Assembly: GCA_929200255.1 (NCBI GenBank)
Contig: CAKMYZ010000014.1
Coordinates: 46,950 to 110,949, forward strand
Direction: 5' to 3'
From: an uncultured Alphaproteobacteria bacterium
Lineage (GTDB): Bacteria; Pseudomonadota; Alphaproteobacteria; Rhodobacterales; Rhodobacteraceae
Length of the DNA stretch: 64,000 nt
This document shows, piece after piece, positions 17,091 to 33,004 of this stretch (its first letter is position 1; every line of letters begins with the position of its first letter). Position numbers and translations under genes: made by a program. Below the pieces are notes generated by a model. The model did no database searches. It had not been told where the DNA came from and was given only the letters and a program-made list of their open reading frames with translations.

Positions 17091-20000
17091 ATGGCTGATC
17101 CCAAACACATCACGGTTTCCGGCGCACCTGAAGGGTATGATGCGCAGCTTATTCTTGCCGAGCTGGCCAAAGGCCAACCCGTATTGCATGTGGCGCGCGA
17201 CGACAAACGCCTTGCTGCGATGCAAGCCGCGTTGCGCTTTTTTGCACCTGATACCCCGGTTGTAGTTTTTCCCGCCTGGGACTGCCTGCCTTATGACCGG
17301 GTGTCGCCGAACACGGACATCTCGGCGGCGCGTATGGCCACATTGGCGGGGCTTGTGCATGGGATGCCGGCACAGTTCATCCTGCTGACCACCTTGTCCG
17401 CCGCCACGCAACGGGTGCCCGCGCGCAGGATGTTACGCGAGGCAGCCTTTACCGCAACAGTTGGCAAACGGCTGGACGAAGATGCGCTGCGCCAGTTTCT
17501 GATCCGCATGGGCTTTACCCAAAGCCCCACCGTGATGGAACCCGGCGATTATGCCATTCGGGGCGGGATTATTGATATCTTCCCGCCGGGCCAAAGCGGC
17601 CCGGTCCGGCTGGATCTGTTTGGCGATGTGCTGGATGGTGCACGGCGTTTTGACCCGGCAACACAACGCACCACCGAAAAACTGACCGAGGTTGAACTGG
17701 CCCCCGTGTCAGAGGTCATTCTGGATGACACCGCAATCACCCGGTTTCGCCAGAACTACCGCCTGGAATTTGGCGCTGCTGGTACCGATGACCCGCTTTA
17801 TGAGGCTGTTTCGGCGGGCCGCAAACATGCCGGGGTTGAACATTGGCTGGGGTTCTTTCAGGATGATCTCGAAACGCTGTTTGACTACCTACCGGGTGCT
17901 ACCGTCACGCTTGATGATCAGGCAACGCCCATGCGTCTGTCCCGCGGGGATAGCATTGCCGATCAATATGGCACGCGGATGCATGCGCTTGGCCAGAAGG
18001 GGCGAATGGACAGCGTCTATAAACCAGCACCGCCGGACCTGCTTTACCTGAATGATGACGCTTGGGCGGCCGCAATCGCGGACCGCCGGATCATGCAGTT
18101 TTCCCCGCTCAAACAAGCCACAGGGCCCGGCGTGATTGATGCAGGTGGACGGATTGGCCGCAACTTTTCGCCCGAACGGCAACAGGAACAGATCAGCCTG
18201 TTTGCTGCCTTGGCCGATCATATCCGCGCGAAACTTGATGATGGGCCGGTTGTCATCGCCTCATACTCCGAAGGTGCGCGCGAGCGTCTTGAAGGGCTGA
18301 TCGAGGACGAAGGCGTGGCCGAGGTGATCCCGGTTACCGATTTCAGCCGCGTTGGTAAACGCGGCGTACATCTGGCGGTCTGGGCCTTGGATCACGGGTT
18401 TGAGGCCCCCGGCATGACGATCATATCCGAGCAGGACGTGCTGGGTGACCGTTTGATCCGCCAGACCAAACGCAAGCGGCGGGCCGAGAATTTCCTGAGT
18501 GAAGCCAACAGCCTGTCCCCCGGAGATCTGGTGGTGCATGTCGATCACGGCGTCGGGCGCTATATGGGCATGGAGGTGGTGACGGCACTGGGTGCCGCGC
18601 ATGAATGCCTGCTGCTGGAATATGCCGAGGATTCAAAACTTTACCTGCCGGTCGAAAACATCGAACTGTTGTCGAAATACGGCCATGAGACCGGGCTGCT
18701 AGACAAACTGGGTGGTGGCGCATGGCAGGCCAAGAAGGCCAAGCTTAAGGAACGCATCCGCCAGATCGCCGAACGCCTGATCCGGGTGGCGGCAGAGCGG
18801 GAGTTGCGCACAGCACCTGCGCTGGACCCGCCGGATGGGCTTTGGGATCAGTTTCTGGCTCGGTTTCCCTATGTGGAAACCGATGACCAACTCGCCGCGA
18901 TCGAAGACGTGCTGACTGACCTTGGTTCTGGGAAACCCATGGATCGTCTCATCTGCGGCGATGTGGGCTTTGGTAAGACTGAGGTGGCCATCCGTGCGGC
19001 CTTTATCGCTGCCTTGTCAGGTGTGCAGGTGGCAATCATCGCCCCCACAACATTGCTGGCGCGTCAACACTACCAGAATTTTGCTGAACGCTTTCGCGGC
19101 TTTCCCGTGAACGTGCGCCCGTTGTCGCGGTTTGTTTCGGCGAAAGATGCGAACCTGACCCGCGAAGGGCTGACCAAGGGCACCGTCGATATCGTTGTCG
19201 GTACCCATGCGCTTTTGGCCAAGGGGGTGCGGTTCAAGAACCTTGGGTTGCTCGTCATTGATGAAGAGCAGAAATTCGGCGTTCAACACAAGGAGCGGCT
19301 CAAGCAACTCCGTACAGATGTGCATGTGTTGACCCTGACGGCGACGCCGATCCCACGCACGCTGCAACTGTCGCTGTCTGGCGTCCGCGATCTGTCGATC
19401 ATTGGCACGCCACCCATCGACCGCTTGGCGATCCGCACCTATGTCAGCGAATTCGACACAATCACCGTGCGCGAAGCGCTGTTGCGTGAACACTACCGCG
19501 GTGGGCAGTCGTTTATCGTTGTGCCGCGGATTTCCGATATGGCCGAGATGGAGGATTTTCTCAAACGTGAAGTGCCAGAGGTATCTTATATCACAGCCAC
19601 CGGTCAAATGGCCGCCGGCGAACTTGATGACCGTATGAACGCCTTTTATGATGGCAAGTTCGATGTATTGCTGGCCACGACAATTGTTGAATCGGGCCTC
19701 GACATTCCGACAGCCAACACCATGATTGTCTGGCGCTCCGATATGTTCGGCTTAAGCCAGCTGTATCAAATCCGGGGCAGGGTGGGCCGGTCCAAAACCC
19801 GCGCCTATGCCTATCTGACAACAAAGCCACGCCAGAAGTTGACCGATACTGCGCAGAAACGTCTGCGTGTATTGGGGTCAATTGATACGTTGGGGGCCGG
19901 GTTTACACTGGCCAGTCAGGATTTGGATATTCGCGGTGCAGGCAATCTGCTGGGTGAAGAACAATCGGGCCAAATGCGCGAGGTCGGGTACGAGCTGTAT

Positions 20001-20531
20001 CAGCAAATGCTGGAGGATCAGATCGCCGCTATCCGCTCTGGTCAGGCAGAAGGTATCATCGACGACGGACAATGGGCGCCGCAGATCAATCTCGGCGTGC
20101 CGGTCCTTATACCCGAGGATTATGTGCCCGACTTGGATGTCCGTCTGGGCCTCTATCGGCGCCTGTCAGAGCTAAGCACCAAGGTTGAACTGGAAGGCTT
20201 TGCCGCTGAATTGATCGACCGCTTTGGCAAACTGCCGCGTGAGGTCAACACGCTGATGTTGGTCGTGCGGATCAAAGCGATGTGCAAACGCGCCGGGATC
20301 GCCAAACTGGACGCCGGGCCAAAAGGGGCCACCATTCAGTTCCACAACGACAAATTCGCCTCACCCAAGGGGCTTGTTGAATTTATCGAAGCGCAGAACG
20401 GCCTGGCCAAGGTAAAAGATAACAAGATCGTCGTCCGCCGGGATTGGGCGAAGGAGCGCGACAAGATCCAAGGCGCGTTCAACATTGCACGGGACCTGGC
20501 GAAGAAACTGGCGGCGCAGAAAAAAACCTGA
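17091..20531 (+). CDS. mfd: Transcription-repair coupling factor
   Basis: The 1146-residue protein (E. coli Mfd is 1148) is the translocase that removes RNA polymerase stalled at DNA damage and recruits UvrA. The N-terminal UvrB-homology region (about 1-330), with DYAIRGGIIDIFPPG, is followed by the RNA-polymerase-interaction domain (about 470-550, DLVVHVDHGVGRYMG). The RecG-like motor has Walker A GDVGFGKTE (about 620-630) and DEEQ (about 723), then motif VI QIRGRVGRS and the C-terminal autoinhibitory TRCF domain. ATG 17091 is preferred; an in-frame GTG at 17082 with AATAGGTG around it is an alternative. It stands alone. Confidence 0.96.
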   Translation: MADPKHITVSGAPEGYDAQLILAELAKGQPVLHVARDDKRLAAMQAALRFFAPDTPVVVFPAWDCLPYDRVSPNTDISAARMATLAGLVHGMPAQFILLTTLSAATQRVPARRMLREAAFTATVGKRLDEDALRQFLIRMGFTQSPTVMEPGDYAIRGGIIDIFPPGQSGPVRLDLFGDVLDGARRFDPATQRTTEKLTEVELAPVSEVILDDTAITRFRQNYRLEFGAAGTDDPLYEAVSAGRKHAGVEHWLGFFQDDLETLFDYLPGATVTLDDQATPMRLSRGDSIADQYGTRMHALGQKGRMDSVYKPAPPDLLYLNDDAWAAAIADRRIMQFSPLKQATGPGVIDAGGRIGRNFSPERQQEQISLFAALADHIRAKLDDGPVVIASYSEGARERLEGLIEDEGVAEVIPVTDFSRVGKRGVHLAVWALDHGFEAPGMTIISEQDVLGDRLIRQTKRKRRAENFLSEANSLSPGDLVVHVDHGVGRYMGMEVVTALGAAHECLLLEYAEDSKLYLPVENIELLSKYGHETGLLDKLGGGAWQAKKAKLKERIRQIAERLIRVAAERELRTAPALDPPDGLWDQFLARFPYVETDDQLAAIEDVLTDLGSGKPMDRLICGDVGFGKTEVAIRAAFIAALSGVQVAIIAPTTLLARQHYQNFAERFRGFPVNVRPLSRFVSAKDANLTREGLTKGTVDIVVGTHALLAKGVRFKNLGLLVIDEEQKFGVQHKERLKQLRTDVHVLTLTATPIPRTLQLSLSGVRDLSIIGTPPIDRLAIRTYVSEFDTITVREALLREHYRGGQSFIVVPRISDMAEMEDFLKREVPEVSYITATGQMAAGELDDRMNAFYDGKFDVLLATTIVESGLDIPTANTMIVWRSDMFGLSQLYQIRGRVGRSKTRAYAYLTTKPRQKLTDTAQKRLRVLGSIDTLGAGFTLASQDLDIRGAGNLLGEEQSGQMREVGYELYQQMLEDQIAAIRSGQAEGIIDDGQWAPQINLGVPVLIPEDYVPDLDVRLGLYRRLSELSTKVELEGFAAELIDRFGKLPREVNTLMLVVRIKAMCKRAGIAKLDAGPKGATIQFHNDKFASPKGLVEFIEAQNGLAKVKDNKIVVRRDWAKERDKIQGAFNIARDLAKKLAAQKKT

Positions 20532-20541
20532 AGGCCTGGGT

Positions 20542-21768
20542 CTAAACCTCGCCCGGTCGTTTGATCATTGTTGTCAGCCACAGGGCCAGCAGCGAGAACG
20601 TCAGCGTCCCAACAGCCATCGGCAGCGGTGTCCCATCAAACAACAGTGCCACAGGGGCCGCTATGAGAACCCCACCAATCGTTGCCACAGCCGCGATGAT
20701 TGATGCCGCCATGCCCGCGATATGCCCCATTTCTTCCATCGCCAATGCGTTCAGGTTTCCGATGGTCAGACCGGCCTGAAAAAAGTTTGACGTAAGCCAG
20801 ACCACATAGGTACCGAAAGCCAGCCAATAGGGCGCATCGGCGGCTGTCACCGCAATCATGATCAGCGTCACCGCGATTTGTACCGTGAACATCGCCTTGA
20901 TGATCGCCCGCATACCCAACCGGACCACGATCCGCGCGTTTAGCACGCTGGCAGAGGCCGCAACAATTGCGATACCCCCAAACCAAAGGTGAAAGTGGTC
21001 GCTTTGCCCGAAGGTGATATCAAATACCTGCTGGGTTGAAGACAGCACCGTAAAAAGCATCCCAAAGGTCAGTGTCTGCACAAAGATTGACAGCCGCGCG
21101 GTGCGATGGGCGAACATCTCTTTGATTGCGGACCAAAGGGCCGTGATGCTCAGCGGGCGGCGGTTTTCCGGCATCAGCGTCTCAGGTTGCCGTACAAGCA
21201 GCCAGGCGAGGGACAAAACCGAAAAAATCACAAAGGCCGCAAAAATCGCACGCCATCCAAATCCAAGAATGATGTAGTGTCCCATGGTCGGCGCCAGTGC
21301 CGGGACAAGCGAGAATACCACCATCACAAACGACAGGATCCGCGCCATGTTCGGCCCGGAATACAAATCGCGGATCAACGCCATGGCCACAACACGCGGG
21401 CCCGCAGCCCCAAGGCCCTGCACGACGCGGGCGGCCAGCATCACCTCCAGCGATTGCGCGGCCCAAGCCACGACGCAGGCAATGACATAGATCATCGCAC
21501 CACCAACCATCACAGGTTTGCGCCCGAACGCGTCCGAGAGCGGCCCGGTGAACATCGTGCCAACCCCCATGCCCAGTACAAAGCTGGTGATGATCAGCTG
21601 GGCGTTGTTCACATTCTCGGGCGACAGGGCTGCGCCGATCTCAGGTAGAGCGGGCAGCATGGCGTCGATGGAAAAGGCGACTGTCGCGGCCAACATCGCC
21701 ATCAGTGCGATGAATTCAGTTTGCGGCAGACGCTTGGCTGTGGATGGGACGTTGACCGCGGTTGTCAT
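20542..21768 (-). CDS. MFS multidrug transporter, Bcr/CflA-like
   Basis: The 408-residue protein has 12 predicted membrane helices. The N-terminal half shows FIALMAMLAATVAFSIDAMLPALPEIGAAL and the MFS loop motif GPLSDAFGRKPVMVGGAMIY, as in Bcr/CflA drug:proton antiporters; relatives export bicyclomycin, chloramphenicol or small peptides. The substrate is not predictable. Its ATG overlaps the stop of the upstream DsbA-family gene by 4 bp, so the two form a unit. It converges on mfd with only 10 bp between the stops and no clear terminator. Confidence 0.87.
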   Translation of the reverse strand: MTTAVNVPSTAKRLPQTEFIALMAMLAATVAFSIDAMLPALPEIGAALSPENVNNAQLIITSFVLGMGVGTMFTGPLSDAFGRKPVMVGGAMIYVIACVVAWAAQSLEVMLAARVVQGLGAAGPRVVAMALIRDLYSGPNMARILSFVMVVFSLVPALAPTMGHYIILGFGWRAIFAAFVIFSVLSLAWLLVRQPETLMPENRRPLSITALWSAIKEMFAHRTARLSIFVQTLTFGMLFTVLSSTQQVFDITFGQSDHFHLWFGGIAIVAASASVLNARIVVRLGMRAIIKAMFTVQIAVTLIMIAVTAADAPYWLAFGTYVVWLTSNFFQAGLTIGNLNALAMEEMGHIAGMAASIIAAVATIGGVLIAAPVALLFDGTPLPMAVGTLTFSLLALWLTTMIKRPGEV

Positions 21769-22409
21769 TCCGCGGCTTCAATCTGATCCATGATCTCTTT
21801 GATCACGCCGACCCACATGTCTGGTGGCTGTGCACCGGGCACAGCATGCTGCTGGGCCACGATGAAGGTCGGGACAGAGTTCACACCCGCCTTGCGGCTG
21901 TGTTTGTCCCGCGCGCGGATGTCGTCGGTATCGCTGTCGGATGCCAGCAGTTTGGTCACCATGGCAGCATCCATTTCGGCGGCATCAGCAATATCTGCCA
22001 GCACTTCATGATCGCCGATATCGCGGCCGTCGACAAAATAAGCCTTGAACAGCAGATCGACCACAAAACTCTGGCGCTGCTCAATCCCCGCCCAATGGAT
22101 TAGCCGGTGGGCGTCTATTGTGTTGGGTGTTGTCTTGATCGCGTCAAAGTTGATATGCGCGCCGGACTTTTCCGCGTGTTCCACAACAGGGGCGTATGCC
22201 TTCACCGCATTCTCTTTTCCGCCAAACTTGCCCTCCAGATAGGCACGACGGTCCATACCACCCGCCGGCATGTCAGGGTTCAACTGAAAGGGGTGCCATT
22301 CGATCGTGAAGGGATGATCGGGAAATTGTTCCAGTGCTTTGTCCAGATTGGTCTTGCCGATGTAGCACCACGGGCAGATGGGATCAGAAATAATATCTAG
22401 CTTGACCAT
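21765..22409 (-). CDS. DsbA-family (FrnE-like) oxidoreductase
   Basis: The 214-residue protein has a thioredoxin fold with an inserted helical domain. CPWC lies near the N-terminus in ISDPICPWCYIGKTNL, with the cis-proline loop VPTFIV near residue 185. This is the cytoplasmic FrnE/polyketide-type branch of the DsbA superfamily, since no signal peptide is present. Members act as thiol oxidoreductases or glutathione-linked isomerases, often in oxidative-stress protection. ATG 22407-22409 is chosen because the family starts a few residues before the first strand. It is coupled to the MFS transporter downstream. Confidence 0.85.
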   Translation of the reverse strand: MVKLDIISDPICPWCYIGKTNLDKALEQFPDHPFTIEWHPFQLNPDMPAGGMDRRAYLEGKFGGKENAVKAYAPVVEHAEKSGAHINFDAIKTTPNTIDAHRLIHWAGIEQRQSFVVDLLFKAYFVDGRDIGDHEVLADIADAAEMDAAMVTKLLASDSDTDDIRARDKHSRKAGVNSVPTFIVAQQHAVPGAQPPDMWVGVIKEIMDQIEAAE

Positions 22410-22503
22410 GGCAGACTCCGACAGTGGGGGGTTACCCTTTCCCTCTATCACGTCTGACGGGAGGGGAAAGCCCGGCCCCGCAGAAATCGCTGTTTGATCT
22501 GGA

Positions 22504-23148
22504 CTAGGCCTTGAACAGGCGGGGCAGGATCAATGCGGCCACGCCGACCCCCACAATCTGCATCACGATGAACATGGGAATATTGGTCGGGTTGATGCCA
22601 GCAAAGGTGTCGCTGAACCCTCGTGCGATGGTCACAGCGGGGTTTGCAAAACTGGTGGACGACGTGAACCAATAGGCGCCTGTGATGTAAAGGGCCACAA
22701 GTGTCGGCACCGCGTCCGGGCGACTTTTCAGACCGCCAAATATCACAAAGAGGAGCCCAAATGTGGCAAGGGCTTCGGAAAACCACAGCGACATGCCTGT
22801 ACGGTCTGTGGTCGAAGCCTGCAAGATGCTGAGGTCAAACATGATATGCGCAGCCCAAACACCCAGGATGCCCCCGATGATCTGCACGACAGCATAGGGG
22901 ATCGCATCGCTGACGCTGATTTCGCCCCGTAGCAGAAATGCCAACGTCACTGCCGGGTTGAAATGCGCTCCGGAAATGGGGCCAAGGGTGGTGATGATGA
23001 CATAAAGAATACACCCCGTCGCTATCGCATTGGCCAGTAGAGCCACTGCTACGTTGCCGTCCGCAAGTGCTGCCCCCATGATGCCAGAGCCGACAACGCC
23101 AATCAGCAAAAATGCGGTTCCCAGCCCTTCGGCCAATAGTTTCTGCAT
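22504..23148 (-). CDS. aqpS: MIP-family channel, probably arsenite-efflux AqpS
   Basis: The 214-residue protein is a six-helix aquaporin-fold channel with both pore motifs: FNPAVT (after SGAH) and FANPAVTIAR, whose final Arg is the selectivity-filter residue. ATG 23146-23148 comes one base after the arsC stop (TAAGATG), so the two are coupled; a TTG at 23158-23160 is an alternative. In Sinorhizobium meliloti an aqpS gene beside arsC provides arsenite efflux through the channel in place of ArsB. I infer the same role here from gene order. The pore motifs alone would also fit a glycerol or water channel. Confidence 0.8.
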   Translation of the reverse strand: MQKLLAEGLGTAFLLIGVVGSGIMGAALADGNVAVALLANAIATGCILYVIITTLGPISGAHFNPAVTLAFLLRGEISVSDAIPYAVVQIIGGILGVWAAHIMFDLSILQASTTDRTGMSLWFSEALATFGLLFVIFGGLKSRPDAVPTLVALYITGAYWFTSSTSFANPAVTIARGFSDTFAGINPTNIPMFIVMQIVGVGVAALILPRLFKA

Positions 23149-23149
23149 C

Positions 23150-23620
23150 TTATCCCCCAATCCGATTGAATTCCGCCTGCAGCGCCTCTTGTGTCATTTC
23201 CTCAAACGGAAGCGCAAGCAGGGCTTCGGCCTTGGCAGACAGCAAGGCGTAGGCATTGGTAAAGGCGGCAGGCTGATCGGCGGGGGCGGCAGCGGCTGGA
23301 TCCTCAACACCCCAATGCGCGCGCAACGGTGCGCCGGGCCAATAGGGGCATTCTTCGGCGGCGGCCGATCCGCAAACGGTGATCACAGCATCCATCTGTG
23401 GGGCGTCCGGTTTGGCGTAGTCATCCCAACTTTGTGAGGAAAGACCCGCAGTCGGAAAACCTTCATCGGCCAACAGCCGCAGCGATTGTGGATGCACCTT
23501 GCCCGCGGGTTTCGACCCAGCCGACCAAGCCTTGATGCGCCCGTCAGAGCGATGCCTGAGAATGGATTCCAGTAGGATTGAGCGGGCAGAATTGCCGGTA
23601 CACAGAACAAGGATATTCAT
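23150..23620 (-). CDS. arsC: Arsenate reductase, low-molecular-weight phosphatase type
   Basis: The 156-residue protein has the LMW protein-tyrosine-phosphatase fold. The P-loop CTGNSARS gives Cys7 and Arg13, the late acidic residue is in EDPAA (Asp107), and two further cysteines lie at 83 and 91 (VCGSAAAEECP). These match the Cys10/Cys82/Cys89 relay of thioredoxin-coupled ArsC, which supports arsenate reduction over a plain phosphatase. ATG 23618-23620 is the only sensible start. It is coupled to the MIP channel downstream. No ArsR repressor, ArsB pump or ArsH is in the window. Confidence 0.9.
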   Translation of the reverse strand: MNILVLCTGNSARSILLESILRHRSDGRIKAWSAGSKPAGKVHPQSLRLLADEGFPTAGLSSQSWDDYAKPDAPQMDAVITVCGSAAAEECPYWPGAPLRAHWGVEDPAAAAPADQPAAFTNAYALLSAKAEALLALPFEEMTQEALQAEFNRIGG

Positions 23621-23693
23621 CTGGGGCCTTTTGGGGTATTTGGCCCCGCGTAGTCAGCCCATGTAACAAGGCCATGACAGCGGGGCCAATTCC

Positions 23694-25508
23694 CTATTCT
23701 TCGTACCACCAAACGTCTGGTTGCCAGCCCGGCCAATCCCCAAAGATCGGGATGTAATCAGGATGCCGCAGCTCTTTGGCTTGGGCAATGCGGCTAATGT
23801 TCCACTGGTAAATCGGGATGACATAGCGACCAGCGGTCAGGACCCGGTCCAGCGCTTTGACGGCCGCAACAAAATCATCCTGACTTTCCGACGTCAGCAG
23901 GCGGCCGATCATGGCGTCAGCAGCTGCAGATTGCACACCCATCAGGTTGCGGCCACCCACTTCGTTGGCGCGTTCAGACCCATAGTAGCTGTACTGCTCG
24001 TTGCCCGGCGACAGGGACAGACCGCGACGGTAATAGACCATGTCGAAGTCAAAGGCGTCGGTGCGTTCCTTGAACTGGGCGCTATCGGCCACGGTCATCA
24101 CAGGTGTGATCCCGATCCGGGCAAGCGACTCCATATAGAGATCAATGATCGATTGCATCTCGGTCGCGCCCTGGTCCAGCAGGATTTCAAGCGTGAAGTC
24201 GTTCCCATCCGCGTCGCGCATCGCGCCTTCCTGAATGGTCCAGCCTGCGGCCTCGAACATTTCAAACGCAGCGGCGCTGCCTGCACGGTTGCGCTCGCTG
24301 CCATCGCTGACGGGCAGGGCATAACCTTCGATGGTACCGGGGATCAGGTCATTCGCAAAAGGTGCCAGGAATTCCGCCACGCGGCCAGTTGCCGGGCCGC
24401 TGTCCATACCCAAGGGAGAGTTCGACCAATACGATGTGATACGCGGTTGGGCAGAACCCGTCATGGTTTCATTGATGAATTCAAAATTGAACGCATGGAT
24501 CAGCGCATCGCGCACGCGCCAGTCGGCCAGATGTTCGCGGCGGGTATTCATCGCGAAGCCCGTCATCCCGGATGGGCGTTGGTGTTCAATCACCTCCTTG
24601 ACGATGTCACCGCTTTGTGTCGCTGGGAAATCATAGCGGGTATCCCAACGCACGACATTGAATTCACGGGTGGCGTTCACCTCGCCCACTTTGAAAGCCT
24701 CAAAGGCGGCGGTTTCATCGCCAAAAAACTCTAGCCGGACCTCATCTAGATTGTTGGTGCCAACGCGGAACGGAACATCCACACCCCAGTAGTCAGGGTT
24801 GCGCCGCAGGGACACAAAGCGCCCCGGCTCAAAGTCATCGATCACATAAGGCGAGGACGTGATCGGCACGATATCGGTGGTGCTTTCGGCGAAGTCGACG
24901 CCCTCCCACTGATCCTTTTTCAGGATGGGGCGCATGCCAGCCAGCAGGGCCAGCTCTCGGTCCTCAACATTGAAGGTAAACCGCACGGTGCGATCGCCCA
25001 CCTGTTCCAGGCTTTCGACCTTGGCCCAAAATCCCAGATACCGGGGGTGGCCGACTGTTCCCAATGTCTCATAAGACCAAATGACGTCTTCAACGGTGAC
25101 AGGGCTGCCATCGGAAAAGCGCGCTTCTTCGCGCAGGGTAAATTCGACCCATTCGCGGTTCGGACCGGTCTCAATCGATTCGGCCAAAACGCCATAAAGT
25201 GAGAAAGGTTCGTCGAGTGAGCGCCCCATCAGGCTTTCGCCCAGGAAAAACCGCAACTGCCATGGCACAGAGCCTTTGCGGATGAACGGGTTAAGGCTGT
25301 CAAAACTGCCGACCTCTGCGGTGACGATCTGGCCGCCCTTGGGTGCGTCTGGGTTGGCATAGGGCAGGGACACAAAATCAGGTGGTAGGGCAGGGTCGCC
25401 ATACATAGCTATGCCATGTTTGGGTTCTGCCATGGCGGCGTGACCCGTGACCCCAAGAACCAGCGCCGCCACTGTGTAGCGCGCCATTTTACCAAATTGG
25501 ATCGTCAT
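23694..25508 (-). CDS. Extracellular solute-binding protein, family 5 (YejA-like)
   Basis: The 604-residue protein has a signal peptide (MARYTVAALVLGVTGHAAMAE) and an SBP_bac_5 fold, starting HGIAMYGDPALPPDFVSLPYANPDAPKGG, which is typical of the YejA subgroup of peptide/microcin C binding proteins. It delivers oligopeptides to an ABC importer in the periplasm. No permease or ATPase genes adjoin it: leftward are arsC and the MIP channel, rightward the divergent bdhA. It is therefore an orphan, or its operon lies elsewhere. ATG 25506-25508 is chosen; a longer start would add an untypical stretch before the signal peptide. Confidence 0.87.
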   Translation of the reverse strand: MTIQFGKMARYTVAALVLGVTGHAAMAEPKHGIAMYGDPALPPDFVSLPYANPDAPKGGQIVTAEVGSFDSLNPFIRKGSVPWQLRFFLGESLMGRSLDEPFSLYGVLAESIETGPNREWVEFTLREEARFSDGSPVTVEDVIWSYETLGTVGHPRYLGFWAKVESLEQVGDRTVRFTFNVEDRELALLAGMRPILKKDQWEGVDFAESTTDIVPITSSPYVIDDFEPGRFVSLRRNPDYWGVDVPFRVGTNNLDEVRLEFFGDETAAFEAFKVGEVNATREFNVVRWDTRYDFPATQSGDIVKEVIEHQRPSGMTGFAMNTRREHLADWRVRDALIHAFNFEFINETMTGSAQPRITSYWSNSPLGMDSGPATGRVAEFLAPFANDLIPGTIEGYALPVSDGSERNRAGSAAAFEMFEAAGWTIQEGAMRDADGNDFTLEILLDQGATEMQSIIDLYMESLARIGITPVMTVADSAQFKERTDAFDFDMVYYRRGLSLSPGNEQYSYYGSERANEVGGRNLMGVQSAAADAMIGRLLTSESQDDFVAAVKALDRVLTAGRYVIPIYQWNISRIAQAKELRHPDYIPIFGDWPGWQPDVWWYEE

Positions 25509-25586
25509 TGTTGTAATGCCCCTGCTATCTGTTTGTTCGTTACCAAGAACCGTAAAGAGGGTTTTCTGCCTTTTCAAACTTTTAGC

Positions 25587-25615
25587 TTGGACGCGGGCAA
25601 GTCATTGCTTATAAA
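25587..25615 (+). promoter_or_regulatory. Promoter of a candidate small RNA
   Basis: TTGGAC (25587-25592) and TATAAA (25610-25615) are exactly 17 bp apart. This is one of the best sigma-70-type matches seen in the window. The expected transcription start is near 25622. No open frame with a plausible start follows; instead a terminator begins about 50 bp later. Confidence 0.6.
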
Positions 25616-25621
25616 GAAGCC

Positions 25622-25697
25622 ACTGCTCGATAGGTTTCTTGCCTGTATGAAACCTGCCTCAATAACTTTACGCCCGCCTTGTGCGGGCGTTTTTTTT
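25622..25697 (+). ncRNA. Candidate small RNA, about 75 nt
   Basis: Between the promoter at 25587-25615 and a strong terminator ending at 25697 lies a predicted transcript of about 75 nt. It has a 5' hairpin, AGGTTTC (25632-25638) pairing with GAAACCT (25649-25655) around a 10-nt loop, then a short unpaired stretch (GCCTCAATAACTTTA), then the terminator hairpin with eight U residues. This is the layout of a trans-acting, Hfq-type small RNA. I do not recognise it as 6S, 4.5S, tmRNA, RNase P or a CCUCCUCCC-type Rhodobacter RNA. It sits between divergent genes, and neither is read into it. Being an sRNA is inference from structure. Confidence 0.55.
25670..25697 (+). terminator. Rho-independent terminator
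   Basis: The stem CGCCCGC (25671-25677) pairs with GCGGGCG (25683-25689) over a 5-nt loop, extended by an A-T pair, and is followed by eight T residues (25690-25697). No protein gene on this strand ends upstream within 5 kb, so it must serve a short transcript. The nearest promoter is at 25587-25615. Confidence 0.85.
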
Positions 25698-25778
25698 ATG
25701 GCTCACGGAACCGTAACGTGGCTTTCGCAGTTGCAGCATATACACTGAGTCGAACGCGAGAGAATCGGGAGCTAAATC

Positions 25779-26552
25779 ATGTCGCTTGCAGGGAAAACCG
25801 CCGTTATCACCGGATCAAACTCTGGCATTGGTCTGGGTGTTGCCCGCGAATTGGCCAAGGCAGGGGCCAACGTGGTGCTCAACTCATTCACCGACAGTGC
25901 AGAAGATCATGCATTGGCTGCCGAAATCGCCAAGGCGACCGGGGTCGAAGCGAAATACGTGCAAGCCGACATGTCTAAGGCTGATGATTGTCGCCGGTTG
26001 ATCGTCGCCGCGGGCGGTTGCGACATTCTGGTGAACAATGCGGGTATTCAGCACGTCGCCCCGGTCCAGGACTTCCCAACGGCCAAATGGGACGCAATCA
26101 TCGCAATCAACCTTAATTCCGCGTTTCACACCATCGCCGCTGCAGTCACGGGGATGCGCGAACGTGGCTACGGGCGGATTGTGAACATCGCGTCAGCCCA
26201 TGGCCTGACCGCATCACCCTACAAATCTGCCTATGTGGCCGCCAAGCACGGCATTGTTGGCCTGACAAAGACCATTGGCCTGGAAACCGCGCAGGAGCCG
26301 ATCACCTGCAACGCGATCTGCCCCGGCTACGTGCTAACCCCGCTGGTCGAGGCGCAAATCCCCGACACGATGAGGGAATACAACATGTCCCGTGAGGACG
26401 TGATCAAGAAGGTCATGCTGGAACGCCAGCCATCCAAGGAGTTTGCGACGGTTGAACAACTGGGCGGTACGGTTGCCTTCCTCGCCTCTGACGCAGCGAC
26501 ACAGATCACTGGCACGACGATTTCGGTTGATGGCGGCTGGACAGCCCTTTGA
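25779..26552 (+). CDS. bdhA: D-3-hydroxybutyrate dehydrogenase (SDR)
   Basis: The 257-residue short-chain dehydrogenase interconverts 3-hydroxybutyrate and acetoacetate with NAD. TGSNSGIGLG (11-20) is the cofactor loop and NNAG lies at 86-89. The catalytic set is Ser139, Tyr152 and Lys156 (SPYKSAYVAAKHG). The closing block is EFATVEQLGGTVAFLASDAATQITGT with SVDGGWTAL, the characteristic 3-hydroxybutyrate-dehydrogenase ending. ATG 25779 has GGGAG upstream. The patatin gene starts inside its stop codon, so the pair is coupled and probably serves polyhydroxybutyrate use. Confidence 0.9.
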   Translation: MSLAGKTAVITGSNSGIGLGVARELAKAGANVVLNSFTDSAEDHALAAEIAKATGVEAKYVQADMSKADDCRRLIVAAGGCDILVNNAGIQHVAPVQDFPTAKWDAIIAINLNSAFHTIAAAVTGMRERGYGRIVNIASAHGLTASPYKSAYVAAKHGIVGLTKTIGLETAQEPITCNAICPGYVLTPLVEAQIPDTMREYNMSREDVIKKVMLERQPSKEFATVEQLGGTVAFLASDAATQITGTTISVDGGWTAL

Positions 26553-27580
26553 AGCGGATCAACCTCGCATTGCAGGGCGGGGGTGCGCATGGCGCCTTTA
26601 CATGGGGTGTTCTGTGTCGCGTGTTGCGCGATGAAGATATTGAAATTGCCGCAATTTCCGGCACATCAGCCGGGGCGCTCAACGCCGCAGCGCTGAAATC
26701 TGGCTGGGTGGCAAACGGGCGTGAAGGCGCGCGCGAAAATCTTGACTGGCTGTGGTCGCAAATCGGTGCAATCACCGACCCGCTATTTACACCGTGGATG
26801 TCTGCCGCAATGCCAACAGCACAGCTTTGGGCCAAGGCGATGGAGTATTCCCCCGCCTTCGCCGCATTCGACATGACGACACGCCTGATGTCGCCTTACG
26901 TTTATGGGCCCGCGCTTCGCAACCCTTTGACACATATTGTCAAAAGGTTTCACTACGACGCCGTCTGTGCCAGCTCTGGACCAGAGCTACATATCTGCGC
27001 CACAAACGTCAGGTCGGGTAAGATCCGCGTGTTCAGCGGTGACGAGATTATGCCAGAGGTCATTATGGCCTCGGCCTGTCTGCCCAGCCTGTTTCAGGCT
27101 GTCGAATTTGAAGACCCCAAGACGGGCAAGATGGAAGCGTTCTGGGACGGTGGCTATACTGGGAACCCAGCACTTTTCCCTTTATTTGCCAACGCGCTAC
27201 CGGACGATATTCTTGTTGTGAATATCAATCCGCTTCACCGAGACACACTGCCAACCGACAGCCAATCCATCCAGAACCGCATCAACGAGATCAGTTTTAA
27301 CAGTTCGTTGTTCCGCGAATTGCGCGCCATTGATTTTGTAAAGCGCCTACTGAAAGACGGGTCGATCAAACCAGGCACGATGAAGAACGTCTTGGTCCAC
27401 ATGATTGCCGATGATGATTTGATGAATGACCTCAACGTGGCCACAAAAACTATTCCATCCCCGCTGATCCTCTCGCGGCTGAAAGAGGCAGGCGAAGCTG
27501 CGGCGGATAAGTTTCTCAAAGACCACAAAAAGGACATCGGCAAGCGCAGTACGGTCAAACTGACCGAGATGTTCAGCTAA
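26549..27580 (+). CDS. Patatin-like phospholipase / acyl hydrolase
   Basis: The 343-residue protein carries the patatin signature: oxyanion hole GGGAHG (10-15), nucleophile GTSAG (Ser40) and the dyad aspartate in FWDGGYTGN (Asp200). Family members cleave acyl esters of phospholipids; related proteins lie beside 3-hydroxybutyrate dehydrogenase and have been proposed to act on PHB or its oligomers. It starts with TTG at 26549-26551, overlapping the bdhA stop (TTGA); no upstream in-frame start is available and LALQGGGAHG must lie at the N-terminus. No signal peptide, so probably cytoplasmic. The 3' end overlaps lysE by 8 bp on the other strand. Confidence 0.88.
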   Translation: MKRINLALQGGGAHGAFTWGVLCRVLRDEDIEIAAISGTSAGALNAAALKSGWVANGREGARENLDWLWSQIGAITDPLFTPWMSAAMPTAQLWAKAMEYSPAFAAFDMTTRLMSPYVYGPALRNPLTHIVKRFHYDAVCASSGPELHICATNVRSGKIRVFSGDEIMPEVIMASACLPSLFQAVEFEDPKTGKMEAFWDGGYTGNPALFPLFANALPDDILVVNINPLHRDTLPTDSQSIQNRINEISFNSSLFRELRAIDFVKRLLKDGSIKPGTMKNVLVHMIADDDLMNDLNVATKTIPSPLILSRLKEAGEAAADKFLKDHKKDIGKRSTVKLTEMFS

Positions 27581-28175
27581 GCAGCTTTGCCGCCAGCGCC
27601 CACATCACAACGCCAATCAGCACGTCCAAAATACGCCATGCGCGGGCGGACTGCATGATGGGGGCAAGTAGACGCGCACCATAGCCAAGGCTGAAGAAGA
27701 ACACAAAGGACGACGCCACAGCGCCAACCCCAAAGGCTGTTTTCTCGGCGGTATCAGTAAATTGGGTCGAAACCGCACCAGCCAGACCAAGCGTATCCAG
27801 ATAAACATGTGGGTTGAGCCAGGTGAAGGCCGCCCCCGTCGCCAGTGTCGCCCATAGCCCCGCGGACTGCCCGGCCAGTGGCATCGCGTAATTGCCCTGC
27901 CACGCCGCCCAAAGCCGCATCGCCCCATAGACAAGCAGAAACGCCGCACCACCCCAGGCCATGATCTGTGGCAGCAGGGGGTAAAGTTCAACAATGATCC
28001 CGAACCCCAGCACACCTGCGGTGATCAGCAGTGCGTCGGATACCGCACAAAGTAAACACAGCCAGAACACATGCGCCTTGAGTAACCCCTGGCGCAGCAC
28101 AAACGCGTTCTGCGCACCGATAGCGAGGATCAGCGCAAACGCTGTTGCAAAGCCGGTCAGTCCTGCGGTGATCAT
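27573..28175 (-). CDS. LysE/ArgO family amino-acid exporter
   Basis: The 200-residue protein has about six membrane segments and the LysE opening GFATAFALILAIGAQNAFVLRQG, with WLNPHVYLDTLGLAG in the middle, where LysE-type members carry the conserved NPH/Y block. The ArgO/LysE branch exports arginine and lysine under excess. The substrate is not certain. A three-base gap separates it from the DUF502 gene upstream, so they may be co-transcribed; otherwise the context is mixed. Converges with the patatin gene. Confidence 0.87.
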   Translation of the reverse strand: MITAGLTGFATAFALILAIGAQNAFVLRQGLLKAHVFWLCLLCAVSDALLITAGVLGFGIIVELYPLLPQIMAWGGAAFLLVYGAMRLWAAWQGNYAMPLAGQSAGLWATLATGAAFTWLNPHVYLDTLGLAGAVSTQFTDTAEKTAFGVGAVASSFVFFFSLGYGARLLAPIMQSARAWRILDVLIGVVMWALAAKLLS

Positions 28176-28178
28176 CGA

Positions 28179-28907
28179 TTATTCGTCAATCGCAGGTGTG
28201 TCTTTGATCTCAACACCATTGGGATAGACGAGGCCCGCAGAGATCACCAACTTGGCCGCATCCTCGACCGTCATATCCAGCACTTTGACGTCACGCTGCG
28301 GCAGGAAAAGCAAAAAACCCGATGTGGGGTTCGGCGTCGTGGGCAGGAACACCGTGACGATGGGCTCTCCATCGTTCAGTTTCGCGTCAATCTCGCCCTT
28401 GGCATTGGTCGAGATAAAGGCGATCGCCCAGATGCCCCGCCGCGGGTATTCTACCAGACAGGCCTTATCAAACGAGGTGTCGCGCTGTGAAAAGACAGTT
28501 TCTGAGATTTGTTTCACCGCATTGTAGATTGATCGCACCACAGGTGTACGGTCTACCAGACGTTCGCCCATCCCCAGAAAAGACCGCCCGATCAGGCCCT
28601 TACCGACCCATCCCACCAGCATGGTGAAGATCAGGAAGATCACGACACCAACGCCGCGGACATTCACGTTGATTTCATCTCCGGGCTCGCGCCCCATGAT
28701 CAGGTTCAGCAGCTCGGTCGGTTGATAAGCGGTTGGCACGAAAGGCCAGACCCAGCTGTCAACCCAGCCCACAACGGTCCAGATCAGCCAGACGGTCATG
28801 CCGATCGGGGCAACGATGATCAAGCCGGCAAGAAAGTTACCCCGCATGCGCGAAATAATACCCGGCTTACTGCGCCGTTTGCCGTCTGGTGGGTTGGGAT
28901 CAAGCAT
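28179..28907 (-). CDS. DUF502-family membrane protein
   Basis: The 242-residue protein has two N-terminal membrane segments (about 24-48 and 85-107), then a soluble domain with LVDRTPVVRSIYNAVKQISETVF and PTTPNPTSGFLLFLP. This is the standard DUF502 layout; the family is widespread and uncharacterised. The start at ATG 28905-28907 gives the usual basic tail before the first helix. It lies between psuG and lysE on the same strand, with 66 bp to psuG, so it may be read with either or alone. Confidence 0.85.
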   Translation of the reverse strand: MLDPNPPDGKRRSKPGIISRMRGNFLAGLIIVAPIGMTVWLIWTVVGWVDSWVWPFVPTAYQPTELLNLIMGREPGDEINVNVRGVGVVIFLIFTMLVGWVGKGLIGRSFLGMGERLVDRTPVVRSIYNAVKQISETVFSQRDTSFDKACLVEYPRRGIWAIAFISTNAKGEIDAKLNDGEPIVTVFLPTTPNPTSGFLLFLPQRDVKVLDMTVEDAAKLVISAGLVYPNGVEIKDTPAIDE

Positions 28908-28973
28908 CGCGAATTTCCAAGTCTTTCTTCAACGCACACTTAGGCACTGATGGGGCACACAACAAGCGTAAGC

Positions 28974-29894
28974 TCAGGTTGTGGCGCGCAGTTTCCCCAT
29001 TGCGATCGAAATTTCTGCCGCAAGTCGGGCGTTGTTGCGCACAAGGGCGATGTTGGCCGTCAAGGACCGCCCTTGGGTCAGTTCGAAAATGCGCCCCAAC
29101 AAGAATGGCGTCACCGCCTTGGCACTGACGGATTGCGCCTCTGCCTCGGCCAAGGCCTGATCAATGATGGGCTGCAGCTGCTCTGCGGGGATTTCGTCAT
29201 CCTTGGGAATCGGGTTGGTAATCAACTGCCCGCCTGCAAGCCCCATGGACGTGCGCATCAGTTGCGCCTTGGCAACCTGTGCAGCGCTATCCATCCGCAA
29301 AGGTGCCACCATGCCAGAGGCCGCAGACCAAAACGCAGGCAACATATCCTGACCATAGGCAATCACCGGGACGCCGAGCGTCTCCAGCACCTCATAGGTC
29401 TTTGACAGATCGAGGATCGCCTTGGCACCGGCGGCCACCACTGTCACTGGCGTTTGCGCCAGTTCGTGCAGGTCCGCAGAAATATCAAAGCTGTCCTCGG
29501 CCCCGCGATGCACGCCACCGATGCCACCCGTGGCAAAGACGTGAATGCCCGCCAGATGCGCGGCAATCATCGTCGCTGCGACGGTTGTAGCGCCGGTGCC
29601 ACCAGTCGCAATACAGGCCGCCATATCGGCCCGCGACAGCTTGGCCACATCCTGAGCCTGTCCCAGCGCATCCAGTTCAGCAGATTCAAGCCCCACATGA
29701 AGCACCCCATCGAGCACCGCAATTGTGGCGGGCACCGCACCGGCAGCACGTACGTCCGCCTCAACCAATCGGGCGGTTTCCACGTTTTGTGGGAAGGGCA
29801 TGCCGTGGGTAATGATCGTGCTTTCAAGCGCAACGAGGGCTGCGCCTGCATTGCGTGCTTCGGCCACTTCGGCACTATAGCGGATCGGGATCAT
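28974..29894 (-). CDS. psuG: Pseudouridine-5'-phosphate glycosidase
   Basis: The 306-residue enzyme splits the C-C glycosidic bond of pseudouridine 5'-phosphate to uracil and ribose 5-phosphate. The family signature ALESTIITHGMPFPQN lies at about 23-37, and GLAGGQLITNPIPKDDEIP and FELTQGRSLTANIALV form the C-terminal conserved blocks. Its ATG overlaps the stop of the upstream kinase gene by 4 bp, giving the standard psuK-psuG degradation pair: kinase first, glycosidase second. This pathway recycles pseudouridine from RNA turnover. No pseudouridine transporter is adjacent. Confidence 0.94.
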   Translation of the reverse strand: MIPIRYSAEVAEARNAGAALVALESTIITHGMPFPQNVETARLVEADVRAAGAVPATIAVLDGVLHVGLESAELDALGQAQDVAKLSRADMAACIATGGTGATTVAATMIAAHLAGIHVFATGGIGGVHRGAEDSFDISADLHELAQTPVTVVAAGAKAILDLSKTYEVLETLGVPVIAYGQDMLPAFWSAASGMVAPLRMDSAAQVAKAQLMRTSMGLAGGQLITNPIPKDDEIPAEQLQPIIDQALAEAEAQSVSAKAVTPFLLGRIFELTQGRSLTANIALVRNNARLAAEISIAMGKLRATT

Positions 29895-30784
29895 AAGGGT
29901 GTTTCTCCGGAAACATATGTGGCGGCGGCATTCAATGCGCGGGTCAGGGCGGTCGCGCGATCCATGCCTTGCCCCTCTGATGCGATATGCGCCGCCATAA
30001 AGGTGTCACCCGCGCCGGTCACACGGGTGACCATGACGGACGGTGGGGTTTGTGTGATGACATCACCCTTTGTGCCTTCGGACGCGGATTTGCCACCGTC
30101 GGTTACCAGAACCCGGTGCGCGCCGCGGGCGATCAAGGCCTCGGCGGCGGTCGCGGCTTCGGTGAAAACTGTCTGGCACAACAGCCCCGCTTCTTCGAGG
30201 TTCACATAAAGCGTCGCCGATGGGTGCCCCAGCAAGGCCAGCAGCCGCTCTGCTTTACCCGGAGAGGCGGGGGCGACGCGCAGATCTGCGGCAGCAAAGA
30301 GGGGCGAGGACGCGATATGTTGCAGCAGTTCCTCGGTCAGGTTGCCGTCCAATGCAATCGGCCCGGCAAAGGGGGCATCGGCGCTCCCAAGCGCGCCGTT
30401 GGACAATGGGCGCAGCACTTTGTCACCTGCTGCCTCAAGCGAATGCGCGTCAGCGATGGCCGCGATCAGCCCGTTGGCCCCTTCAACCGCCATATAGACG
30501 TCCGTGGGCAGGTCGTCAGAGCGGTAAATATGGTCACAGATCATGCCCATGCGCCGGGCCTCTGCGATCAGTTCTTCGCCTTCGGCATCGCGCCCGATGG
30601 TGGTGAGCAGGGCAGGGTGCATGTCAAAACGGCGCAGGGTCATGGCGATATTCATCGCCACGCCGCCGGGCAGACGGGTGATCCGCCCAGGCACATCAGA
30701 GCCCACGCGCATATGGCTGGCGGCGCGGCCAATCACGTCCCACAGGACCGATCCAATGCACAAGATATCCGGTGTATGTGTCAT
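29891..30784 (-). CDS. psuK: PfkB-family carbohydrate kinase, probably pseudouridine kinase
   Basis: The 297-residue protein is a ribokinase-fold kinase. The N-terminal DVIGRAASHMR...GRITRLPGGVAMNIAMTLRRF block is the PfkB substrate lid region, and VTRVTGAGDTFMAAHIA near residue 260 holds the catalytic Asp and anion hole. Overlap with psuG makes pseudouridine the likely substrate: it would form pseudouridine 5'-phosphate for the next enzyme. Sequence alone would allow other nucleosides or sugars. The start at 30784 has a normal N-terminus (TPDILCIGSVLWDVIG). Confidence 0.88.
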   Translation of the reverse strand: MTHTPDILCIGSVLWDVIGRAASHMRVGSDVPGRITRLPGGVAMNIAMTLRRFDMHPALLTTIGRDAEGEELIAEARRMGMICDHIYRSDDLPTDVYMAVEGANGLIAAIADAHSLEAAGDKVLRPLSNGALGSADAPFAGPIALDGNLTEELLQHIASSPLFAAADLRVAPASPGKAERLLALLGHPSATLYVNLEEAGLLCQTVFTEAATAAEALIARGAHRVLVTDGGKSASEGTKGDVITQTPPSVMVTRVTGAGDTFMAAHIASEGQGMDRATALTRALNAAATYVSGETPL

Positions 30785-30825
30785 CCGGGCCTTCTGGCGC
30801 AGGGATCAGACAAGGGCAAGGCCTG

Positions 30826-31629
30826 TTACTCTGCAGGGACGGCGAAAGTCAGATTGGCCCAAAGCGTTTCCCAGACGGCGTTGGATGTCGCTGCCAGCTC
30901 GATATTGGGGGCGCGCAGGACGACCGCGTCGACCATATAACGATAGCCCGGTTGCACCGGAAAGGTCGCAATTCCGTCCGCGTTCGTGCGGTAAAGGCCA
31001 ATGCTAACCCGGCCGTCTGGACCCTTTTGAAAGACCTCGACCTGCACATCGACCCGCAATTCATTGCGGTAATGCACTTGCACTTGCATCCCCTCTGACA
31101 GATCGTCGGTGTAAGGGTTCTTAAGTGCGACAATCTCGGTTTCAAGTCCAACGCGCTGGTCGTTGCCAATGTTGTCCCCAACACCAATCAGGGTCTTTGC
31201 GTATCTCGAATAGATCTCACGAAACCCATCAAGCGAGATGCCGCGTTCCAGATGCCGGCTACGGATATCCCCGAAATCTTTGTGATCGACGAACTTCTGA
31301 AAATCTTCCCACGCTTCATAGGTGACCGTCGCATTGAGTGACTCGTAGGCCGCGATATGCAGACCCTCGCCAAGCGGCTCTTGCTGCAGCGCAGGGATGT
31401 CGCCCGGGCGGCCGTTTACGCGCTGCGCCTCATCCCCCTGAAACATGACAAAATTGACAAAGCGGTTGGGCAGATATGCTAATTCCTCGCCTGCGAATTC
31501 CTGCCCATTGACAATATGCGCTTCAAGACTACCGTCCGCTTCGATCTGATACTCCAGCGGTTCAATCCAGAATTCATGGGCCGCCAACGGGGTTGCGAGA
31601 ATACTGAAAATGAGGGTGAGAAGACGCAT
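30826..31629 (-). CDS. DUF4198 periplasmic protein
   Basis: The 267-residue protein has a signal peptide (MRLLTLIFSILATPLAA), then AHEFWIEPLEYQIE, the typical start of DUF4198, a family sometimes described as nickel-uptake-associated; a beta-rich domain with PVQPGYRYMVDAVVL closes it. The mature protein begins with His, as in many periplasmic metal-binding proteins. ATG 31627-31629 has an AAGGAAG Shine-Dalgarno. The divergent HupE gene begins on the other strand with an ATG overlapping this one. The function is not established. A TTGACA on this strand lies at plus 31677-31682, inside the HupE signal-peptide region. Confidence 0.8.
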   Translation of the reverse strand: MRLLTLIFSILATPLAAHEFWIEPLEYQIEADGSLEAHIVNGQEFAGEELAYLPNRFVNFVMFQGDEAQRVNGRPGDIPALQQEPLGEGLHIAAYESLNATVTYEAWEDFQKFVDHKDFGDIRSRHLERGISLDGFREIYSRYAKTLIGVGDNIGNDQRVGLETEIVALKNPYTDDLSEGMQVQVHYRNELRVDVQVEVFQKGPDGRVSIGLYRTNADGIATFPVQPGYRYMVDAVVLRAPNIELAATSNAVWETLWANLTFAVPAE

Positions 31630-33004
31630 GAAAACTTCCTTTTTGACTGCCGCAAAAGTGGTCTTTCTTCGAGTATTGTCAAGCGCAGTGCTTGTTTTGT
31701 TCACAACTCTGTCAACCGCGCAGGCGCATGAGGTTTTGCCGGCGATCGGCGATTTGCGCGCTGATGATGGTATCGTCACGGTTGAGGTTCGCGCCAATCT
31801 GGAAAGCTTTGTTGCAAAGATAAACTTGGCAGAAGTGGCCGATACGAATGACAGCGCAGAGGCCGCCACCTATGATGAGCTGCGTGCGCTGCCGCCAGCA
31901 GAGCTCCAACAACAGTTCGAAGCGTTTTGGCCGCAGATGGTGCAAGGCATCACCCTGACAGCGGACGGACAGGCGTTGCGCCCTGAACTCGTACAGGTTG
32001 ACGTGGGCCCTATTGGCGATGTCGAGGCGGTACGCCCATCAACCATCACATTCAATGCGCAACTGCCCGAGGGCGCCGAGGCACTTCAAGTCGGCTGGGC
32101 GCCTGAATTCGGCGTGCTTGTCTTGCGGCAAATGGATGTGCCGGAACCCTATGACGGTTATCTCGAAGCAGGTGCGCTGTCAGATGAATTTGCCTTGGCT
32201 GGTGGCAATCAGGCGACCGGTTGGGAAACCTTTGTTGACTATATTCCCGTGGGCTTTGATCACATTGTACCCAAGGGTCTTGATCATATCCTTTTTGTTT
32301 TGGGTCTGTTCTTTCTTGCCGCCCGTTTCCGGCCACTGCTTTTGCAGGTCTCCCTCTTTACCGTGGCGCATACAATCACGCTGGCGTTGGCCGCGCTTGG
32401 CCATACCAAGTTCTTGGATGATTTCTTTCTTGGCACCTTCGGGATCGAATTCATCGCCGTCGTTGAACCGTTAATTGCATTGTCCATCGTCTATGTGGCC
32501 ATCGAAAACATCTTCATGAAAGGAATCAGCCCGTGGCGACCGTTCGTGATCTTTGTCTTTGGCCTTCTGCATGGTCTCGGATTTGCATCGGTCCTAGCAG
32601 AATTCGGACTGCCAGAGGCCACATTCTTGCCTGCCCTGATCGGCTTTAACGTCGGTGTTGAAGTGGGCCAGCTTTTCGTGATTGCGGTGATGTTCCTGTG
32701 CGTCTGGCAGGCCTTGCGGATTGATCGCGGCGCAAATGAAGCCGGGCGGGGGTTTGCCATTTATGGCGCGCTGCTTGCTGTTGCGCTGGCGCTCATCGCG
32801 CTGAACCCGGCAGGGCTCTCCGCGGTGCTGGAAAACCCGGTCTGGCTCTTTGCGGGACCATTGGCTGCGGTCTTTGTGCTTTGCATGGCATCAATCGGGT
32901 TGCGCGATCAACAAGAGGCATATCGCCGTCTTGTGGCGGTCCCATGTTCGCTCGCCATCGCCCTTGTGGGGGCCTATTGGTTCATTGAGCGTACAATTCT
33001 CTGA
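31628..33004 (+). CDS. HupE/UreJ-type membrane protein
   Basis: The 458-residue protein has a signal sequence (about 1-33), a soluble N-terminal region (about 34-190), then a HupE/UreJ_2-type membrane part. That part has YIPVGFDHIVPKGLDHILFVLGLFF with its conserved histidines, then HTITLALAALG, LSIVYVAIENIF and GLLHGLGFASVLAEFG. HupE and UreJ relatives are linked to nickel or other metal uptake; this long form is uncharacterised. ATG 31628 forms a CATG with the divergent start. GTG 31661 or TTG 31676 are possible alternatives that would leave promoter room. The neighbouring DUF4198 gene suggests a joint metal-related role. Confidence 0.78.
   Translation: MKTSFLTAAKVVFLRVLSSAVLVLFTTLSTAQAHEVLPAIGDLRADDGIVTVEVRANLESFVAKINLAEVADTNDSAEAATYDELRALPPAELQQQFEAFWPQMVQGITLTADGQALRPELVQVDVGPIGDVEAVRPSTITFNAQLPEGAEALQVGWAPEFGVLVLRQMDVPEPYDGYLEAGALSDEFALAGGNQATGWETFVDYIPVGFDHIVPKGLDHILFVLGLFFLAARFRPLLLQVSLFTVAHTITLALAALGHTKFLDDFFLGTFGIEFIAVVEPLIALSIVYVAIENIFMKGISPWRPFVIFVFGLLHGLGFASVLAEFGLPEATFLPALIGFNVGVEVGQLFVIAVMFLCVWQALRIDRGANEAGRGFAIYGALLAVALALIALNPAGLSAVLENPVWLFAGPLAAVFVLCMASIGLRDQQEAYRRLVAVPCSLAIALVGAYWFIERTIL

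Follow-up and report, generated by a model that had tools for sequence, protein, structure and literature searches.

A small RNA gene conserved across Rhodobacteraceae, probably the local StsR, is complementary to the mraZ leader of its own genome

The window analysed here, which is the whole stretch of 64,000 nucleotides from an uncultured bacterium of the Rhodobacteraceae, carries a free-standing small RNA gene located upstream of bdhA. Judging from its sequence and from analogy with Rhodobacter sphaeroides, the predicted RNA is very probably (about 0.9) the local copy of StsR, with its hairpin loop and 3' arm matching the leader of the dcw operon. The sequence features of the gene, its conservation, the compensating changes in its terminator, the complementarity to the leader and the recurrence of this complementarity in other genomes were established here. 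An earlier interpretation made from the letters of the window (the sequence-only reading) had proposed a free-standing small RNA at this place, which was the right reading, and had described it as an unexplained signal. The latter description no longer holds, as its size, its target and its bacterial family agree with those of StsR of R. sphaeroides. The features of the locus are presented in Table 1.

Table 1. Features of the small RNA locus, in positions of the window
Feature	Position	Strand	Basis or remark
A/T-rich conserved stretch just 5' of the -35 element	25571..25583	+	alignment conservation
Promoter, TTG 25587-25589 and TATA 25610-25613	25587..25615	+	sequence, conservation
StsR-type small RNA, predicted 76 nt	25622..25697	+	fold, blastn, covariance model
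5' segment CTGCTCG	25623..25629	+	complements CGAGCAG in the own mraZ leader, about 50 nt past the 17-nt site
5' hairpin, stem 25631-25638 with 25649-25656, loop of 10	25631..25656	+	predicted fold
Antisense segment, perfect 17-nt complement of the own mraZ/dcw leader (UpsM)	25641..25657	+	genome search
Intrinsic terminator, 8-bp stem and eight T	25670..25697	+	terminator scan, compensatory changes
Solute-binding protein gene, divergent neighbour	23694..25577	-	ORF list; name from the sequence-only reading
bdhA-like short-chain dehydrogenase, outside the RNA gene	25779..26552	+	ORF list; name from the sequence-only reading

The promoter elements were read directly from the sequence and consist of TTGGAC (25587-25592), a spacer of 17 nt and TATAAA (25610-25615). 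Based on the sequence, the fold and the terminator scan, the sequence-only reading had placed the 76-nt unit correctly, together with its promoter, hairpin and terminator. The conservation of the region was analysed on 116 rows, i.e., the window and 115 of at least 118 loci collected by an exact match to the 31-mer 25631-25661, while three loci without 70 nt of upstream sequence were left out. As this 31-mer lies within the RNA, only the bases outside it count as evidence of conservation in this dataset. Among the matches listed, the -35 element was conserved at T25587 (100%), T25588 (90%) and G25589 (97%), and the TATA at 25610-25613 was conserved in 94-99% of the rows. The first nine bases of the RNA (25622-25630) were identical in 116/116 of these rows, and full conservation sets in at A25622, where the +1 is expected, which coincides with the start near 25622 proposed previously. 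The A/T-rich stretch in front of the -35 element, with A25576-A25578 conserved in 91-95% and T25580-T25581 in 93% of the same rows of listed matches, may by its sequence be an UP-like element or an activator site.

The consensus promoter scan did not return this promoter because it requires T as the sixth base of the second hexamer, which is A here. The RpoH motif of R. sphaeroides, as given in the excerpts of PMC10673084 and PMC3441632, comprises TTG at -35 and TAT at -12. The TTG and TAT elements of the window are found at the published RpoH spacing, and the pattern fits RpoHI/RpoHII and the housekeeping sigma factor alike.

The 77-nt fold had a predicted energy of -24.1 kcal/mol, compared with -13.7 +/- 2.4 kcal/mol for dinucleotide shuffles (z -4.3), and none of the 200 shuffles was as good. 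The 5' hairpin, described earlier as a 7-bp helix, is present and is one pair longer (25631-25638 with 25649-25656). The terminator stem (25670-25677 with 25683-25690) consists of 8 pairs, including 7 G-C pairs, and is accompanied by eight T residues at 25690-25697. It is the richest in G-C pairs of the 16 terminator-like sites detected in positions 20000-32000, a number within the range of the shuffled sequences (12.4 +/- 3.8). The ORF list places the genes between 20542 and 25577 on the minus strand, as the sequence-only reading had stated, so that no upstream gene needs this terminator. The eight-U tail would, by its sequence, be compatible with Hfq binding.

The structure was further compared among 46 sequences, of which 16 were picked for divergence. 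Compensatory changes, named earlier as possible support for both hairpins, were present in the terminator, where 8/8 pairs showed double changes, and absent from helix 1 of the 5' hairpin, where double changes occurred in 0/9 pairs and 6/9 pairs were invariant. In the model-fitted alignment of these sequences, which leans towards structure, 99.2% of the cells of the whole structure were paired; MAFFT alignments gave the same terminator swaps. None of the 500 shuffles and no slid version equalled the observed pairing value on any of five measures.

The blastn search with the fragment 25580-25700 matched 36 of 60 drawn genomes, that is, 36/36 genomes of the same genus, including the own one, and 0/24 genomes from other families of the class. 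In the family draw, the RNA was detected by blastn in 289/295 genomes, and in 258 of the 260 with a completeness of 90% or more and a contamination of 5% or less. The six family genomes in which the RNA was absent by both blastn and the covariance model were 71-92% complete and consisted of 70 to 530 contigs. The covariance model R1, built from 20 sequences, matched 148/148 genomes representing 72/72 genera of the order draw, all from one family; the RNA is not confined to this strain. In the class draw, model R1 matched 11/289 genomes: four in the family and seven in other families. These seven matches were weak (29.8-35.8 bits) and were dropped as terminator matches sharing at most 7 nt with the core.

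The most conserved part of the RNA is a core of 39 nt; among the 46 sequences, with the divergent ones counted, 39 carry it without any change. Conservation extends over all positions of the core, and the lengths of the linker and the terminator vary between genomes; the terminator drifts freely while the 39-nt stretch stays nearly letter-identical. The exact 31-mer was found in at least 118 contig stretches of the genome collection, and the loci among the matches listed include Paracoccus, Ruegeria, Sulfitobacter, Rhodovulum, Cereibacter flavus and Neomegalonema. The RNA is carried by 7/7 genomes of the genus holding Cereibacter flavus, and in the C. flavus locus (L138) the core lies between the same neighbours as in the window. 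The occurrence of the RNA is hereby extended to practically the entire family, with marine roseobacters and Paracoccus among its carriers.

The 17-nt segment complementary to the own mraZ/dcw leader is formed by the hairpin loop and the 3' arm of the RNA. In the own genome, the 17-mer has exactly two sites: antisense in the RNA gene and in the mraZ leader. The leader site lies 193 nt before the putative GTG start of mraZ, with a strong terminator between them. In the predicted fold of this leader (L217), a long-range helix surrounds the StsR site and the strong terminator is present, and from the modelling the leader looks like the local UpsM gene. The 17-nt site is partly paired in that predicted fold, with a mean unpaired probability of 0.54, and the cofold of the RNA and the leader gains 13.2 kcal/mol over the separate folds. 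The 7-mer match of the 5' segment is also present in the leaders of many other genomes, usually about 50-65 nt past the first site.

The recurrence of the match was analysed in 44 scorable leaders with each genome's own RNA as the query; mraZ was placed by tblastn, at least 250 nt of leader had to be available and sites within 450 nt were counted. A match of at least 11 nt was found in 36/44 leaders, always between -157 and -234, compared with 0/44 in each of the reversed, sense and complement controls. Matches of at least 9 nt occurred in 40/44 leaders, and in 1, 3 and 5 of 44 in the respective controls. The two remaining genomes of the 46 were G078, with a leader of 199 nt and a 16-nt match, and G076, whose 54 nt were not scorable. 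When the window RNA was used as the query, a perfect match of at least 9 nt was present in 28/29 leaders; these came from 31 loci, in two of which no mraZ start was recognised. In 20 of these 29 leaders, the unconstrained duplex energy was better than that of any of 60 shuffles, and in the other 9 it was not. In Cereibacter flavus, the match between the RNA and the mraZ leader is 17 nt long.

No match of at least 11 nt was found in 8/44 leaders (G067, G073, G088, G118, G161, G231, G253 and G416). In G067, G073, G231, G253 and G416, the RNA core is unchanged though the 11-nt leader site is missing, which means that the site is not universal and that the RNA and the site do not always occur together. 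Compensating changes of the RNA and its target were sought in the strongly changed hairpins of G088, G118 and G161, and no compensated site was found there. These eight genomes may reflect decay, an altered interaction or additional targets that keep the RNA from changing. It is also worth mentioning genome G092 (74% complete), in which a 13-nt leader site was present and the RNA was not detected.

The background on R. sphaeroides was taken from excerpts of PMC8307010, PMC8625941, PMC11354728, PMC5089854, PMC3688512, PMC3413700, PMC6509803 and PMC13414033. According to these excerpts, StsR, formerly RSs0827, is an RNA of 72 nt, which is under the control of RpoHI/RpoHII and binds UpsM (PMC8307010). 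UpsM is an sRNA derived from the mraZ leader; the pairing with StsR opens an RNase E site in UpsM, and the cleavage of UpsM lowers the dcw mRNAs and growth. StsR is induced by RpoHI/RpoHII in the stationary phase and under stress, and it pairs with the dcw leader as well as with UpsM. The same excerpts describe a long, terminator-bearing mraZ leader as exclusive to Rhodobacteraceae, which matches the family limit of the RNA found here.

The window RNA resembles StsR in length (72 nt published and 76 nt predicted), in its complementarity to the dcw leader/UpsM and in belonging to Rhodobacteraceae. However, R. sphaeroides represents another genus, and the likeness is one to the published description (size, target and family). 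The sequence features and their conservation correspond to an orphan sRNA of some 72 nt that has a promoter and a terminator of its own, and base-pairing with the UpsM/dcw 5' UTR is seen as complementarity. UpsM is the partner of StsR and comes from a different locus; its counterpart in the present genome has the 17-nt site and the strong terminator. In the excerpts of the literature searched, StsR is reported only from R. sphaeroides, although the central paper (NAR 2021, gkab491) may say more.

For the window RNA, transcription, the sigma factor, Hfq, cleavage and the growth effect would follow by analogy with R. sphaeroides. Stress or the stationary phase would turn on the gene via an RpoH-type sigma factor, and the RNA would unfold its 5' hairpin and base-pair to the UpsM leader before mraZ through the 17 nt and, further along, through the 7-nt match of its 5' end. 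The pairing would expose the RNase E site in the UpsM leader, UpsM and the dcw mRNA would then be cut, and division would slow. The near-invariance of the 5' hairpin is most likely due to its 3' arm, which must also pair with the UpsM leader. This double demand of hairpin closure and dcw-leader invasion would keep an sRNA near letter-identical over 39 nt across hundreds of genera, and it is offered as a testable reason for the unusual conservation. We give an even chance to the broader proposal that StsR and UpsM form a two-RNA stress brake on cell division, shared near-universally by the Rhodobacteraceae, in which the 3' arm of the hairpin latch is the antisense, frozen by two demands. From the present data, a stress-triggered RNA brake on the dcw operon is predicted to operate in marine Rhodobacteraceae as well.

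The possibility that the region is a leader or attenuator of bdhA, with the start at 25622 and a terminator that tunes the read-through into bdhA, was weighed against the gene neighbourhood. The bdhA gene is on the same strand and starts 82 nt past the last T of the U tract, its start lies at most 400 nt downstream of the RNA in 77/101 loci among the matches listed, and UpsM, in the excerpts mentioned, shows that such terminators can be partial. However, 24/101 of the loci listed retain the RNA although no bdhA start was detected in the next 400 nt: bdhA is 499-2216 nt away in 8/101 and undetected in the available downstream sequence of 16/101, and so the RNA is not always directly upstream of bdhA. 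The solute-binding gene is located within 900 nt of the RNA in 102/107 listed loci with enough sequence, and the comparison of these figures ties the RNA to the place and not to bdhA. Moreover, the spacer between the terminator and bdhA is poorly conserved, the MFE and centroid folds of the 77-nt sequence include no competing anti-terminator, and a bdhA leader leaves the antisense match to mraZ unexplained. The alternative, which the sequence-only reading had kept in view, is thereby weakened, and we regard it as improbable. As for the solute-binding protein ORF, its true start may sit further downstream than annotated.

It is similarly improbable that the gene encodes another family-wide sRNA that shares UpsM as a target by chance. 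Such a reading draws on the fact that StsR was compared by its published description, whereas the predicted size, the target and the family all agree with StsR, and the 17-mer of the own leader has one exact antisense partner in the genome, which is this RNA. The membership of the rhizobial mmgR (suhB, RF00519) or another Rfam sRNA family is even less likely. The mmgR/suhB RNA is also a short alphaproteobacterial sRNA with one 5' hairpin and a terminator, and weak full-length matches were obtained for mmgR (21.6 bits), RyhB (26.4), BjrC1505 (25.0) and Hrs13 (24.7), but the gathering scores are far higher (41, 55, 50 and 52, respectively). By eye, these matches rest largely on the terminator and the U tract, and the matches obtained at relaxed thresholds were judged to be due to chance. 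In the Rfam 15 search of the window, a tRNA alone reached the gathering level and no family matched this RNA at that level; a covariance model is now given for it. The least probable reading, which can be practically disregarded, is that of a small protein. A frame starting with ATG at 25647 is open to the end of the RNA and an ORF of 110 aa crosses the region, but no frame that closes within the 76 nt is longer than three codons, and a core conserved at every position is combined with linker and terminator lengths that vary between genomes.

The exact 31-mer was also present, among the matches listed, in L063, L125 and L133 (Neomegalonema) and in two further alphaproteobacterial genomes (L074 and L086). 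The solute-binding neighbour was undetected in four of these five listed loci, and L125 has one of 42%. These copies may be deep branches or moved copies.

The excerpts of PMC5107571/PMC4809877 mention two sRNAs of P. denitrificans (intergenic 134 and 100) whose genomic context is said to be that of an sRNA of R. sphaeroides; they might be the RNA described here. In the accessible parts of the sRNA lists of P. denitrificans and R. pomeroyi (PMC5107571 and PMC4809877), no entry was mappable to this locus, and the text search of papers with 12-13-letter strings of the window returned none on this RNA by title.

The own genome contains 15 further sites with 2-3 mismatches to the 17-mer, compared with 4 for the backwards control, and these could be further targets or a result of composition. 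Ten of the 15 sites were examined, and each of them falls within a frame that is open for 100 codons or more on one of the two strands.
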